Shown: piece by piece, positions 26,512 through 32,166 of the stretch
How positions within the stretch are numbered: position 1 is the first letter of the stretch
Layout: each line of letters begins with the position of its first letter
From: Planctomycetota bacterium
GTDB taxonomy: Bacteria; Planctomycetota; Planctomycetia; Pirellulales; Pirellulaceae
Length of the DNA stretch: 64,000 bases
Direction: 5' to 3'
Assembly: GCA_027619595.1 (NCBI GenBank)
Contig: JAQCHP010000005.1
Location: forward strand, 1-64,000
The notes under the pieces: generated by a model
Databases searched by the model: none
Seen by the model: only the letters and a program-made list of their open reading frames with translations
What the model was told of the DNA's origin: nothing
Position numbers and translations under genes: made by a program

Positions 26512-26634
26512 TTAAATCTCCGATACGCCCCGTTTGGACGGCGGGCCGGTCGACTGGACCTCGAGCACGGCATCGCTCATCCAGCAGCCCACATAGGGGG
26601 AGTTTCGCTGCTTCGTCAAAATCCAAATATAGGA
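26512..26634 (-). pseudogene. C-terminal half of a DUF4864-like gene, cut off by the mobile element
   Basis: On the minus strand, from base 26634, the frame reads S-YIWILTKQRNSPYVGCWM then SDAVLEVQ and ends at TAA 26512-26514. 'LxKQ...PYxGCWM-D-V' is the expected C-terminal end of DUF4864 proteins, as I know the family. The N-terminal half is at 31755-32166. Joining ...GGT from the right with TCC TAT ATT from the left gives a continuous frame (GEGS-YIWIL). Without the element the gene would end 118 bases upstream of the ECF sigma gene. Confidence 0.85.
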
Positions 26635-26656
26635 CCCCAGCTGTTCTCCGTGCCGT
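26615..26656 (-). other. Attachment site, left junction (recombinase 3' end / host gene)
   Basis: The proposed TC crossover is at 26633-26634 (GA on the plus strand). Sequence to the right (26635 upward) is element; to the left is host. The element side carries the half-site CGGAGAA (minus strand) nine bases from the core. The recombinase stop codon (TGA, 26616-26618) lies on the host side. Confidence 0.75.
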
Positions 26657-28559
26657 AGTTTCGTTGTGAACTCCACGGGTGGCCGGTTTTGGGGATGATC
26701 TTCACGTCGATCAGTTCCCGGCTGTCATCCTCGAAGCGGCAGATCATTTTGTCGATCAACTGGCGGACGACTTCCCCCTTGCGGCGGTTCTCGTTGCCTT
26801 GAACAGTTTCCAAGGCCGACTCATAAGCAGCGGCCAGTCGTTTCGATTCTTCCAGAACTTCGTGATACTGTTCGACCAGTGGTTCCAACTGGCCTTTCAG
26901 CTTTTTGATTTCGACTTCGGCCATGCCCATTTCGGCGTCGGCCCGTTCTCTTGCCATCTCGGTTTTGAGTGACTTGTATCGCTCAAACAGGCGGTCGAAG
27001 TCGGCTTGCTTTTCGGCCAGCTTCTCTTGCAGCATCTTGGCGTTGCTGGCGTAGGCTTCGTTGTAGATTTCTTCTAGCGTGATTTCGCCATACACGTCCA
27101 TCGTGTCTTGGTCGATGATGACTTCGCTATCGTCGATGTAGTGGATTCCTTGGGCCAGATTGGCCGTGATGAAGTCGGTCATCTTCATGTAGACGTAGTG
27201 CAGTTCGCACTCCTTCATCCAGCTTTCGGTGAACAGAGCATCGACCAGCGATGAGTTTTGATCGGCGGCCACCAACACGTTCAGCCGATGGCCGACTTCT
27301 TCCAAGTAGCATTCCAAGATTGGCTCAATCTCAGCATTCGGAACCCGAAAGCACTGGCAGCCGGTCTCGTTCTTCTTGCCGTTCACCTTGTAAGTTTTGC
27401 AGATATACCCTTCACAGGCTTTGTCGCCTGACAGTTTTTCGCCGCACCTGTGGCAGTAGAGCAGACCAGACAACCAGTGAGCCTCGCCCCGGTTCGTCTT
27501 CCGGTGAATCTCCCGGTCGTTCATTTTGGTCTGGACCTTCTCCCAGATTTCGACCGGCACGATTGCGTCGAAGACAGGTTCATCGGGCTGCACCCAATCA
27601 TCCGGCTCCCGCTGGCGACCGTTGATGCTGTCGCCATTCTTCTTGCGGGGAGCGGTGCGGTATTCGCCCTCGACGAACTCGCTGAACCGGCTGTTCGAGC
27701 GTTTGTTGTAGGCCGGCAGTCCGATGTAGACCGGATTGAGCAGCATCTTGCTAACAAACCCGCTCGACCATGCCCCGGCCCGGACGGGATCGACCTTCAT
27801 TGCTTTCAATCGTTCGGCGATCTTGTTGAAGCTGATCGTTTCGGTCGCATACCACTCGAAGATTTTCCGCACGGCTTCCAAGCGTTCGGTGCGGATCGAC
27901 GGAGCCAGATAGAACTTGTCGGTTGGGTCTTTCGCCGGGAAGTTTCCTTTGCCGTCGAAGCGTTCCTGTTTCCCATCGGGCCAGATCTTCAAGCGGTGGC
28001 TCCATCCTTCGATGACGACTCGCCACTTGTTCTTCTTGCCGCTCATGCAGACGACATCCAGACCGTAGGGAACCGGGCCGCCCGTCCATTCGCCGGCCTT
28101 GGCCTGCACGATCTTCTTGGACAAATCCCGGTCGGCCTTCACCTTCTGTTCTCGTCGGGACGCCAGTGAATTGACCGTGGTGGTCAGCACGGTGGCGTCG
28201 TCTTCGTCGGAGAGACAACGGTTCTCGATGATCGACCACAACCGGCAGCCGCCCTTGCGGAGCGTCGAAAGGAACTCGCCCCATTCATGCGGGCCGCTGG
28301 TTCCAAAGCGGTCCTGCGACTCGACCACGATCCAGTCGAGCATTTCGTTCCGCACCATGTCGAGCAGCAGTTGGAACTGCTCCCGCTTGTCGGCCTTGTC
28401 TCTGGACCCCACGTCCTCAAACAGGGGTGCAATATTCAAGTCGTGCTGTGTCTCGAACCGGCTGAATGATTTCTTCTGCCGGTCGTTGTCCTGTTTGTCG
28501 GTCGAGACTCGGATCAATCCGGCGATCCGTCCCGCTGGGAAGTTGTCGTTATGGGTCAT
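26616..28559 (-). CDS. Large serine recombinase (integrase) of the element
   Basis: 647 residues. The resolvase domain (~12-150) has the nucleophile in GLIRVSTDKQ (Ser19) and the active-site region IVVESQDRFGTS. A 'Recombinase' domain (~160-330) has GGPVPYGLDVV and SSGFVSKMLLNPVYIGLPAY. A zinc ribbon (~375-415) has YCHRCGEKLSG plus a later Cys pair (YICKTY, GCQCFRV). A coiled coil (~525-605, MLQEKLAEKQADFDRLFERY) follows, as in phage-type large serine integrases. The gene crosses the attachment core: residues up to Gly642 are element-encoded and the last five (PIFGF) come from host sequence. In the predicted circle the frame instead continues 65 codons through a basic tail to 31557. Confidence 0.93.
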   Translation of the reverse strand: MTHNDNFPAGRIAGLIRVSTDKQDNDRQKKSFSRFETQHDLNIAPLFEDVGSRDKADKREQFQLLLDMVRNEMLDWIVVESQDRFGTSGPHEWGEFLSTLRKGGCRLWSIIENRCLSDEDDATVLTTTVNSLASRREQKVKADRDLSKKIVQAKAGEWTGGPVPYGLDVVCMSGKKNKWRVVIEGWSHRLKIWPDGKQERFDGKGNFPAKDPTDKFYLAPSIRTERLEAVRKIFEWYATETISFNKIAERLKAMKVDPVRAGAWSSGFVSKMLLNPVYIGLPAYNKRSNSRFSEFVEGEYRTAPRKKNGDSINGRQREPDDWVQPDEPVFDAIVPVEIWEKVQTKMNDREIHRKTNRGEAHWLSGLLYCHRCGEKLSGDKACEGYICKTYKVNGKKNETGCQCFRVPNAEIEPILECYLEEVGHRLNVLVAADQNSSLVDALFTESWMKECELHYVYMKMTDFITANLAQGIHYIDDSEVIIDQDTMDVYGEITLEEIYNEAYASNAKMLQEKLAEKQADFDRLFERYKSLKTEMARERADAEMGMAEVEIKKLKGQLEPLVEQYHEVLEESKRLAAAYESALETVQGNENRRKGEVVRQLIDKMICRFEDDSRELIDVKIIPKTGHPWSSQRNYGTENSWGPIFGF

Positions 28560-28591: not shown

Positions 28592-28623
28592 GCCCCCGTA
28601 GCCGACAGGGAGGCTATGGGGGC
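28592..28623 (-). terminator. Putative intrinsic terminator between resolvase and integrase genes
   Basis: On the minus strand a 12-bp stem (GCCCCCATAGCC with GGCTACGGGGGC, one G-T style mismatch) with a short loop is followed by TTCTCTTTT. It lies 37 bases after the resolvase stop and 32 bases before the integrase start. It would limit read-through from the resolvase promoter into the integrase, implying that the integrase has its own regulated expression or relies on partial read-through. Confidence 0.6.
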
Positions 28624-28660: not shown

Positions 28661-29272
28661 TTAGTTTTTTTGCAACGCCGGCTCGGTCTTCAACACGTCG
28701 TAGATGGTGGGCCTCGATAGCCCCGTCGCCCTTGCGATGGCGGCCACCTTTTCCCCTTCGGCCTTCATCCGGTGAATCAGCCGAATCTGTTCGTCATTGA
28801 CCTTGATCCGTCGTCCCTTCTCCGATCCGCCCCAAGTCTTCCCCTTGGCACGGGCCGCCGCCTGACCGGCCAAAATCCGCTCCGCACGGACTTCGGTTTC
28901 GTAGGCGGCCACGCTCGCCAGCACATTCGCCATGAGCCGGCCAGCCGCCGTGGACAGGTCCAGCCCATCACGCAAGCTGACCAGTCGCACGTTCAATTCC
29001 GTCAGTTCGTCGAACAGGGCGGTCAGCCCTTTGGCGGTTCGTCCCAGCCGATCCAGCCGCCACACGGCCACTTGCTGAACCTCGCCGGATCGAACATGCC
29101 GCAGCAACCGGGTGAAGGCGGGCCGCTCCATCGTCTTGCCGGTGAAGCGGTCCCGATACCAGCGAACCTCTCCTTCCTGCTGGGCCGCCCATCGCCGTAA
29201 TTCCGGCTCTTGGCTGGCGACATCCTGCGACTTGCTGGACACCCGCAGATAGATGGCGATGGTCTGGCTCAT
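28661..29272 (-). CDS. Small serine recombinase / resolvase (Tn3-Pin type)
   Basis: 203 residues. The N-terminal resolvase domain has IAIYLRVSSKSQ with the nucleophile Ser, then QVAVWRLDRLGRTAKGL (conserved Arg cluster) and STAAGRLMANVLASVAAYE, leading into the long E helix (RAERILAGQAAARAKG). The C-terminal helix-turn-helix is MKAEGEKVAAIARATGLSRP followed by TIYDVL. Length and order are those of Tn3 resolvases and Pin-type invertases. In a circular or multimeric element it could resolve dimers, or control a DNA inversion, but no inverted crossover sites were noticed. It is on the same strand as the integrase and precedes it by 101 bases. It is divergent from the PEP-CTERM gene. Confidence 0.93.
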   Translation of the reverse strand: MSQTIAIYLRVSSKSQDVASQEPELRRWAAQQEGEVRWYRDRFTGKTMERPAFTRLLRHVRSGEVQQVAVWRLDRLGRTAKGLTALFDELTELNVRLVSLRDGLDLSTAAGRLMANVLASVAAYETEVRAERILAGQAAARAKGKTWGGSEKGRRIKVNDEQIRLIHRMKAEGEKVAAIARATGLSRPTIYDVLKTEPALQKN

Positions 29273-29621: not shown

Positions 29622-30245
29622 ATGATGCGGGCAAGTCAACTGGCGGTGGCGTGCGTGGCGGTGCTGTTCGCTACGGCGGGGCAAGTCCAGGCGGACATCA
29701 TCACGATTGATTTTGACGGATTCACACCCACCGGCAGTTTCGGTGGCGGTGTAGAAGATGGAATAGTAGTAGGCGGGATTAGCGGTCCTGTCGCAGTCAG
29801 CGGGATCTTCCTAGGCCCATTAAGCGGAATAAATTCATTGCACCACGGAAGTGGGTCTTTAGCGGTCTTTTCCTTGTCGGGCTTTACTGGAGAAACATTC
29901 ACACTGTCCAGTTTCTATGCTGGATCTACATATGGTGGTGGCGAACCGTTGACTTTAAGTGGATTTCTTGGTGGCTCACTGGTTGGCACCGACGTGTTCA
30001 GCCCAAACCCTCCCGGCAGCTACTTATCATTCACACCAACAAATCTCTCGGGCGTAACGATGGATACCTTGGTATTCGATATGGGTGCAGCAGGACCCGG
30101 ACCCACCAATATTGATGATATTGTGTTGAATGTAAATGTTCCCGAACCTTCCTCCCTCGCTTTGTTCGGCATCGGTGCATGCGTCGCAGGGCTTGGAGCC
30201 GCCCGTCGTCGCCGACGTGAAAAACAACAAGAGACCGTAGCCTGA
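29622..30245 (+). CDS. PEP-CTERM sorting domain-containing exported protein
   Basis: 207 residues. N-terminal signal peptide (LAVACVAVLFATAGQVQA), a Gly/Ser/Thr-rich beta-type middle part (ITIDFDGFTPTGSFGGG; FTLSSFYAGSTYGGGEPLTL), and a C-terminal PEP-CTERM tail: VPEPSSLALFGIGACVAGLG followed by an Arg cluster (AARRRRREKQ). PEP-CTERM proteins are thought to be processed by an exosortase and linked to extracellular polymer. The middle part resembles low-complexity planctomycete surface proteins with no catalytic motif. It is the only plus-strand gene in the element and appears to be cargo. ATG 29622 is preceded by GGGAGAAG; a second ATG follows immediately. Confidence 0.9.
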   Translation: MMRASQLAVACVAVLFATAGQVQADIITIDFDGFTPTGSFGGGVEDGIVVGGISGPVAVSGIFLGPLSGINSLHHGSGSLAVFSLSGFTGETFTLSSFYAGSTYGGGEPLTLSGFLGGSLVGTDVFSPNPPGSYLSFTPTNLSGVTMDTLVFDMGAAGPGPTNIDDIVLNVNVPEPSSLALFGIGACVAGLGAARRRRREKQQETVA

Positions 30246-30509: not shown

Positions 30510-31553
30510 TTACGCCCGTCGGTCACAAAATCGGACTAAGCCAGCCCTCTCGAAACACGCCCACACCATGCCTGCAACCGCATCTAAATGGTTGCTAGTG
30601 CTAGCGTTCGTGGGGGAACGGTTTCGGGGCGGTCCACGGGGAAAAATCGGCTCACATACCCGGCTAATAACGGGCAGGACCGACGCCGTCACGCTCTGGC
30701 GGTGGTGACGTGCGAGCGGCCACGATGGCGTCGGCTCCCGTTGTTCGTCTGCTGGCGGCTCGTCCGTCTGTTGGTCTTCATCCTGCCGGCCTTCCGCATC
30801 GGCCGCCAACTGTTCCTCGCTCGGCTGCCACCTTCGCCGCTGGGGCGGCTCAGGCGGCCTCCACTCCTCGATGTAGCTTTCGCCAAACCACGCCCGCCGA
30901 CACTCCTTCCATAACTCCCCTTTGGACTTCACGAAATAACCGCCGAACTGCCCCGACAGGTTCAGCCCCAGCCCCTTCTTGAACAGCAGAACCTCCCGCT
31001 CCCCGTCCTGCACGTCGGCCATGTCCTTGACCGTGTAGCGAGTGATGGCGGCTACCGACCGGATGTTTTCACAGTGGGCCAGTTCCGCCGTGGTTCCGCT
31101 GGCCTTCTGCACGATCTTCCCCAACACGTCTGCCGGATCGTCCATGCTGGTCCTTATGAGCAGATGCAGATGGATCAGGTTGTTTCGTTCGATCTCCCGC
31201 ACAAAGTAAACAGCCAGTTCCATCGCTCTTGTCTTGGCAAAGTAGCCTGCTTGCCGCCGTAGTTTTTCATGGAAGTCCCGAAACTCTGAAACCGTGCGGA
31301 CTTCGCTGAACTTGACCACTGCTTCATGGGTCGGCTGGGTATACCGATGGTTCATATTCAGGATTCCACACTCCCTCACCGACCAATTCTGCCGAGATTC
31401 GATAGATGCCGATGGGGTCCGGTTGATGTGGTTCCCCCAAGGAAGCTCCCATCGTTGCCGGGGCTGGGCTTGGTAATAACAGGGAACCCTTGGTTCTTCG
31501 TCCTCCCATTGATCGAATTGTTCGTTAGTAACCGCCTGACAGACCATCTCCAC
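30510..31553 (-). CDS. HUH-type replication / relaxase-like protein
   Basis: 347 residues. The central part contains NLIHLHLLIRTSMDD, whose H-L-H is the metal-binding HUH motif of rolling-circle replication initiators and related transposases. It is followed about 45 residues later by ITRYTVKDM, a likely catalytic Tyr with Lys four positions away (Y-x-x-K). Upstream are FSEVRTVSEFRDFHEKLRRQ and AMELAVYFVREIER, matching the strand-helix plan of Rep domains. The C-terminal third is polar and Pro/Arg/Glu-rich (WRPPEPPQRRRWQPSEEQ). It would nick one DNA strand to start rolling-circle replication of the circular form. Starts: GTG 31553 or ATG 31547. IS91-like transposase is the alternative, less likely at this length. 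Confidence 0.75.
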   Translation of the reverse strand: MEMVCQAVTNEQFDQWEDEEPRVPCYYQAQPRQRWELPWGNHINRTPSASIESRQNWSVRECGILNMNHRYTQPTHEAVVKFSEVRTVSEFRDFHEKLRRQAGYFAKTRAMELAVYFVREIERNNLIHLHLLIRTSMDDPADVLGKIVQKASGTTAELAHCENIRSVAAITRYTVKDMADVQDGEREVLLFKKGLGLNLSGQFGGYFVKSKGELWKECRRAWFGESYIEEWRPPEPPQRRRWQPSEEQLAADAEGRQDEDQQTDEPPADEQREPTPSWPLARHHRQSVTASVLPVISRVCEPIFPRGPPRNRSPTNASTSNHLDAVAGMVWACFERAGLVRFCDRRA

Positions 31554-31556
31554 CGC

Positions 31557-31753
31557 TCACACACGTCCTTTCCTCTTGCCACCGTGCTTACAAGAGTGTC
31601 GTGAGCCAGATTTTTTCGATGAGTCTGGGGAAAATTTCTTTTGAGAGGATGGTTTTCGTCGTGATGTGTGTTTCTTTGTAGGCCCGCTTCCACGCCTACG
31701 CCGGCCCTCAGGCTTGCTCCCGCTGGGAAGCGTCAGGCAGAGAAGTTCATAAA
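31557..31753 (-). other. Displaced 3' tail of the recombinase frame (basic, 65 codons)
   Basis: In the integrated state this is an orphan open frame between the disrupted host gene and rep. In the predicted circle it fuses in frame to the integrase: ...SWG followed by LYELLCLTLPSGSKPEGR, then a Lys/Arg-rich tail ending HGGKRKGRV at TGA 31557-31559. 20 of the 65 residues are Lys or Arg. The stop is three bases before the GTG of the HUH protein. I list it as part of the excised-form integrase gene, not as a separate gene. Confidence 0.65.
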
Positions 31754-31775
31754 GAACCTTCGCCGTGGAGCAGGC
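31735..31775 (-). other. Attachment site, right junction (host gene / element)
   Basis: The proposed TC crossover is at 31754-31755 (GA on the plus strand). Host DUF4864 sequence lies at 31756 upward; the element begins below. The element side carries TTCTCTG (minus strand) nine bases from the core, mirroring CGGAGAA at the other end. Confidence 0.75.
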
Positions 31776-32166
31776 TGACCAATACACGGGCTGAGTCATC
31801 ACGCAACACCGGCGTCCCCACAACGACTGTACCGGATCGGCACAGGACATTGTAGGGAGGACGGCGGACCATCTCCGCAAACCGCCCGATCGGCCCTGTT
31901 TGTACCAAATTGGCCGGCGACGCGAAACAGATACACTGGATCAGGCCAAAACGATCGCCCTGCGCCAAACTATCGATCTGGAGCTTCACCACCTGCTCGG
32001 GGGTTAAGTCGGGATGTGGATAGACCAAGGACGCCGTCGTATCAACGGTCGTGAGTCCTAGCGGGTGCAGGGGAAACCACCACTGAAATGTCCATGTGAC
32101 TACATAGAAAAGGCCAACCACCAACAGCGTTGGACGCCAGAAGTGGAAGTTTGCCCGTCCATCCAT
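31755..32166 (-). pseudogene. N-terminal half of the DUF4864-like gene, disrupted by the element
   Basis: From ATG 32166: a membrane anchor (PTLLVVGLFYVVTWTFQWWF), then LTPEQVVKLQIDSLAQGD, CFASPANLVQTGPIGRFAEM and VRRPPYNVLCRSG, which is the N-terminal and central part of DUF4864. The frame runs to GEGS at the junction, then into element DNA and stops at 31747, giving a 139-residue truncated product. The missing end is at 26512-26634. The intact protein would be about 177 residues, membrane anchored with the domain outside. The domain's function is not known to me. Confidence 0.85.

Follow-up and report, generated by a model that had tools for sequence, protein, structure and literature searches.

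In mycobacteriophage BPs and others, the attachment site (attP) lies in the repressor gene, and on integration the reading frame loses its phage-encoded C-terminus and stops early, at attL (PMC4557955, PMC8092301). In the Ralstonia phage phiRSS0, attP lies in ORF13, and integration shortens the C-terminus of the encoded protein by 26 aa (PMC3816273). SSV-type archaeal tyrosine integrases carry attP inside the integrase gene itself, which is split by integration, and recombinases that disrupt their own gene were described in a review as exclusive to archaea (PMC8371274). Durrant et al. mined the attachment sites of large serine recombinases, and passages of their study report targets enriched in DNA competence genes as well as multi-targeting enzymes; these passages mention neither an exchange of C-termini nor a recombinase gene that contains attP (PMC10083194). 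In the searchable open literature, which is only part of the whole, we found no earlier report of a serine integrase that loses a tail on integration while its catalytic body stays intact.

The locus described here is a 5115 bp (~5.1 kb, AC to AC) integrative element of a planctomycete bacterium, located in a 64,000-nucleotide stretch of DNA that was analysed as a whole (the window). It interrupts a host gene, of which the 3′ part lies on the host side of attL (26512–26649, minus strand) and the 5′ part on the host side of attR (31767–32166, minus strand). Joining the two flanks at AC restored a protein with the join sequence LLHGEQLGSYIWILTKQ, which aligned without gaps to homologues such as L075. 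The gene is DUF4864-like by its homologues, with a weak Pfam DUF4864 match (0.0069, below cut-off). The window gave no hits in Rfam or tRNA scans, and attB therefore does not correspond to a tRNA gene.

When bacterial genomes were scanned, two elements nearly identical to this one were identified, each inserted at a host site of its own: L031 (96% aa) and L032 (92%, with a frameshifted integrase gene). Searches with the replication-protein-like gene and the tail DNA described below added L065 (G271) and L066 (G044), both decayed. At attR, all five copies are alike from AC-GGC onwards. At attL, the sequence ...TACGGC-AC is common to four copies (the window, L031, L032 and L065), which diverge beyond it. 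Judged from the sequences, the crossover core is AC (26650–26651 at attL and 31765–31766 at attR, minus strand), because the common sequence of the relatives stops there, the host gene is restored without a gap and attP is symmetric about AC. The left attP arm (26652–26676, minus strand) lies within the integrase coding sequence and the right arm (31740–31764, minus strand) covers the opening codons of the tail. Compared as inverted repeats, the two arms agree at 18 of 25 positions (shifted controls: 0.21–0.38). The site thus has the 2-bp non-palindromic crossover and the imperfect inverted-repeat attP of large serine recombinases. The first-pass annotation had taken TC as the core, which displaced the junction by 17 bp at attL and by 11 bp at attR. 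This candidate was ruled out, since the shared sequence of the relatives stops at AC and a TC join drops two residues of the host protein. The five copies occupy five different host sites with little in common besides AC, although the host sites of the window and L031 additionally share AGCCTnCTCCAC. The window-type enzyme is therefore relaxed in its choice of target.

The integrase gene (26616–28559, minus strand) encodes, in its integrated form, a large serine recombinase of 647 aa with Pfam Resolvase (PF00239, 2.3e-15), Recombinase (PF07508, 4.5e-17) and Zn-ribbon (PF13408, 2.9e-5, just under its cut-off) domains, and it matches a PHROG integrase (2.6e-53). All the recognised domains precede attP. 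The reading frame has no stop before the crossover, and its stop codon (26616–26618) is host DNA, as the first-pass annotation had recognised in stating that the frame crosses its own attachment site. The host side of attL thus supplies, in a frame other than that of the host gene, the stop and the last 10 residues (ENSWGPIFGF) of the integrated enzyme, which follow 637 element residues; the five residues (PIFGF) counted earlier are too few once the AC core is used. In L031 the host adds A; the corresponding additions would be T in L032 and AKV in L065. When the sequence is joined at AC, the predicted circle product has 637 + 68 = 705 aa. The earlier length of 647 aa for the integrated enzyme is accordingly retained, and that of ~707 aa for the circle form is slightly reduced. 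Across the integrated copies examined (the window, L031, L032, L065, and the six comM elements, G031 and G084 described below), the integrase frame runs up to the core without a stop in 12 of 12. Their host-derived ends are unrelated and range from 1 to ~35 residues. It is highly probable that attP lies within the integrase gene in this architecture, with a long circle form and a short, host-ended integrated form. The sequence comparison supports the earlier proposal that the C-terminus differs by state, with the element tail present only in the circle.

As in BPs-type repressors, attP is inside an element gene and the C-terminus is exchanged on integration, although the two products are here predicted from sequence. 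However, BPs-type systems involve a repressor gene, a tyrosine integrase and the loss of a degradation tag, whereas here the serine recombinase itself is affected and its tail is not tag-like. Likewise, ORF13 of phiRSS0 is a putative regulator for which XerCD of the host carries out the recombination, and not the recombinase gene itself. The locus resembles SSV-type elements in that attP lies within the integrase gene. It is not a suicidal integrase of the SSV type, in which integration cuts through the catalytic domain of an archaeal tyrosine-family enzyme and thereby abolishes the enzyme; the present integrase belongs to the bacterial serine family, its catalytic body remains whole and the tail is swapped. 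The enzymes of Durrant et al. belong to the same protein family as the window integrase, and their genes were called on integrated genomes, according to passages of that study (PMC10083194).

The circle-only tail (31557–31763, minus strand) has the sequence AKVLYELLCLTLPSGSKPEGRRRRGSGPTKKHTSRRKPSSQKKFSPDSSKKSGSRHSCKHGGKRKGRV, encoded by 68 codons (31763–31560) followed by TGA (31559–31557). The first-pass annotation had described a Lys/Arg-rich extension of 65 codons, 20 of them Lys or Arg; an open and basic extension is indeed present, but the AC join gives 68 codons with 21 Lys or Arg. Among the open reading frames listed for the window, the sole start of the tail frame is a TTG at 31880, within host DNA, and therefore the tail of the circle could be translated only when fused to the integrase. 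An open frame of 68 codons begins by chance at 27% of positions in this element. For this reason the open frame alone is weak evidence, and the claim is carried by comparison. In the window, L031 and L032 the tail is free of indels and stops. Parsimony placed 54 changes in the tails of the five copies, 12, 13 and 29 of them at codon positions 1, 2 and 3 (chi-square P 0.006), a third-position excess; the first-pass annotation had proposed a check of codon-position patterns in this segment. When the attP arm was left out, the counts were 12, 13 and 26 (P 0.028). Permutation of the changes gave P 0.009 for third positions and P 0.035 for synonymous changes; of the three frames, that of the integrase was the most synonymous. 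The tail dN/dS is 0.33–0.37, with a dS of 0.10–0.16 versus 0.28 in the integrase gene, so that constraint on protein and on DNA both seem to act on it. This low dS, together with the chance frequency of such frames, would also fit a non-coding tail that is conserved as an attP arm or as binding sites and is open by chance, but the codon-position pattern speaks against that explanation. With few substitution events, and with two of the five window-type copies dead, the evidence for coding from these copies is good but not overwhelming.

More distant relatives provide further comparisons. The integrases of G144, G261, G041, G047, G080 and, later, G750 are 32–37% identical to that of the window. 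All six elements are inserted in comM/yifB, and the other half of comM was located at the far end of each. A planctomycete family inserting in comM/yifB was also noted as L044, L045, L046, L047, L048 and L120, with elements of ~10–30 kb at the same site, a GG core and long inverted-repeat attP arms. The inferred core of the six elements is GG, and their attP arms are symmetric in five of six (14–18 of 25 positions), with G261 at a one-base offset. In 6/6 the integrase frame is open to the core and stops a few codons into antisense comM. The SPGPG/SPGPN ending of these relatives had been considered as the native end of the integrase, with the window tail as its homologue (sum P 0.005); the ending is antisense comM DNA, and the residual similarity was given no weight. 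Joined as circles, the frames are open for 57 (G144), 71 (G041), 53 (G047), 47 (G080), 66 (G750) and 15 (G261) codons. G261 has a clear tail one frame over, and its right attP arm contains exactly one extra base, which accounts for both its broken symmetry and its broken frame. Over all seven elements, the product of the chances of the open frames is 1.3e-4, which is not a formal test.

The tails of G144, G047, G261 and G750 form one family (0/2000 shuffles in four pairs), and in these four pairs the tail frames rank first of the 36 frame combinations. Because the integrases of the comM elements are just 34–57% identical, this likeness is not due to recent shared DNA. The G047 tail has no possible start codon and can therefore be expressed only by fusion. 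The G041 tail contains a resolvase-type helix-turn-helix with Pfam matches above cut-off (HTH_7, 3.2e-7; HTH_38, 2e-7); it also has an ATG and might be made as a separate protein. Three helices were predicted in the G144 tail with moderate confidence (mean pLDDT 69). In our reading by eye, xEIxxxLGQPWxxSIxxA set beside EIARILGLSRKQVSRVL suggests a likeness to a helix-turn-helix. No significant similarity was detected between the window tail and the comM tails. The tail net charge is +18 in the window subgroup versus +3 to +8 in comM tails. The idea that homologous integrases share a conserved basic tail thus holds for the layout, which recurs in the six comM elements with four tails homologous in the integrase frame, but a strongly basic tail is peculiar to the window's subgroup. 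The frame-specific homology of the comM tails and the Pfam helix-turn-helix domain in one of them add to the codon-position pattern against a non-coding tail, which we consider improbable.

Alternatively, integrase and attP may simply form a compact module with attP at its 3′ end, the enzyme tolerating any C-terminus and the tail being a by-product with no role. The unrelated host ends of the integrated copies are in line with this, and the overlap of attP with coding sequence could by itself preserve the first codons. However, conservation extends well beyond the attP arm, follows codons and is visible at the protein level between integrases 34–57% identical, and such a passive origin appears improbable. 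Taken together, the comparisons support the view that a circle-only tail belongs to the conserved design of this clade of planctomycete recombinases and did not arise by chance in one insertion, and that tails are kept as protein in two subgroups. We regard the tail as quite likely to be a selected protein segment, and the architecture and a selected tail are, jointly, likely to hold.

Two integrases 30% identical to that of the window, in G031 and G084, also take their stop codon from host DNA. The respective host genes are SMP-30-like (by eye; Pfam 0.13, below cut-off) and an amidohydrolase (5.8e-12), and their far halves were not found in the sequence stretches examined. The relatives G678 and G680 yielded no usable att site, and no interrupted host gene was seen for G138. 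Searches of plasmids, phages and viral contigs found neither a close relative nor a circular form.

We propose that attP near the 3′ end of the integrase gene would allow the circle to encode a long enzyme with an element tail. Recombination at the AC core would cut the tail off the gene, and host codons up to the first stop would take over. The tail may be a small DNA-binding module, and the circle-encoded enzyme would be integration-competent or more active. Loss of the tail at integration would leave a damped enzyme and favour stable insertion until another factor aids excision. The tailed form is favoured as the integrating enzyme on the grounds that the tail can be made at precisely the stage at which the element has to integrate; this direction, in which the tailed form integrates and the tail-less form is damped, is put forward tentatively. 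With slightly greater reserve, we suggest that these enzymes may be a clade of bacterial serine integrases with a self-shedding DNA-binding C-terminal module, acting as a direction or activity switch intrinsic to the recombinase, with no separate factor.

The opposite direction is conceivable as well. The tail could act as a negative module by destabilising the enzyme, inhibiting it or serving autoregulation, and activity would then be higher in the integrated enzyme that lacks it. BPs offers a parallel: an ssrA-like tag directs the degradation of the longer repressor encoded by the circle, and the active form is the truncated one made by the prophage (PMC4557955). However, the tails do not end like ssrA (...GKRKGRV in the window; ...SNSH, ...RDEA, ...GDG and ...AKGQ in others), and the circle, unlike in the case of a repressor, needs an integrase. 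A negative module is thus unlikely; nor is the locus a case of BPs-type integration-dependent immunity, as the switched gene is a recombinase with a tail ending in GKRKGRV.

The tail is followed by a replication-protein-like gene of 345 aa (30510–31547, minus strand) that is conserved in the relatives. The tail stop and the ATG of this gene are 9 nt apart, and the ribosome-binding-like GGTGGAG lies between them. Ribosomes reading through attP could therefore reach this start, and replication would be on only in the circle. This translational coupling does not need conserved amino acids, and the comM elements examined have no gene so close after the tail, yet their tails are conserved. As an explanation of the tail it is doubtful, but coupling may add to the effect of the tail in the window group only. 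The replication-protein-like product had no match in Pfam, NCBIfam, PHROG or PDB. Its HLH and YTVK motifs, read by eye, suggest an HUH Rep, and it is possibly an undescribed HUH replication initiator.

The direction control of serine integrases is an old question, and these enzymes are the basis of many genome-engineering tools. Switching by an attP inside a gene has been described in repressors and in the tyrosine integrases of archaea, and the present locus would add the serine integrases of bacteria. One gene would encode two forms of the enzyme, free and integrated, both of which are directly testable. When annotated from integrated genomes, these integrases receive a host-derived C-terminus. 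Therefore, surveys and tool screens may test the enzyme without the tail of its integrating state.

The element also encodes a small serine recombinase of the resolvase/invertase type (28661–29272, minus strand; Pfam Resolvase, 1.8e-37, and HTH_7) and a cargo gene with a PEP-CTERM sorting signal (29622–30245, plus strand; Pfam PEP-CTERM). The ends of the cargo gene are conserved (to ~29704 and from ~30137) and its middle is unrelated in the relatives (L031:4105–4584; L065; L068). It looks as if the central part is swapped between fixed borders. L068 carries two or three PEP-CTERM cassettes inside 10 kb, and no integrase was detected there. Between the small resolvase gene and the integrase start, a terminator-like hairpin is followed by CTTCTCTTTT at 28593–28611 (minus strand). 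With this hairpin 5′ of its start, the integrase gene may need its own promoter.
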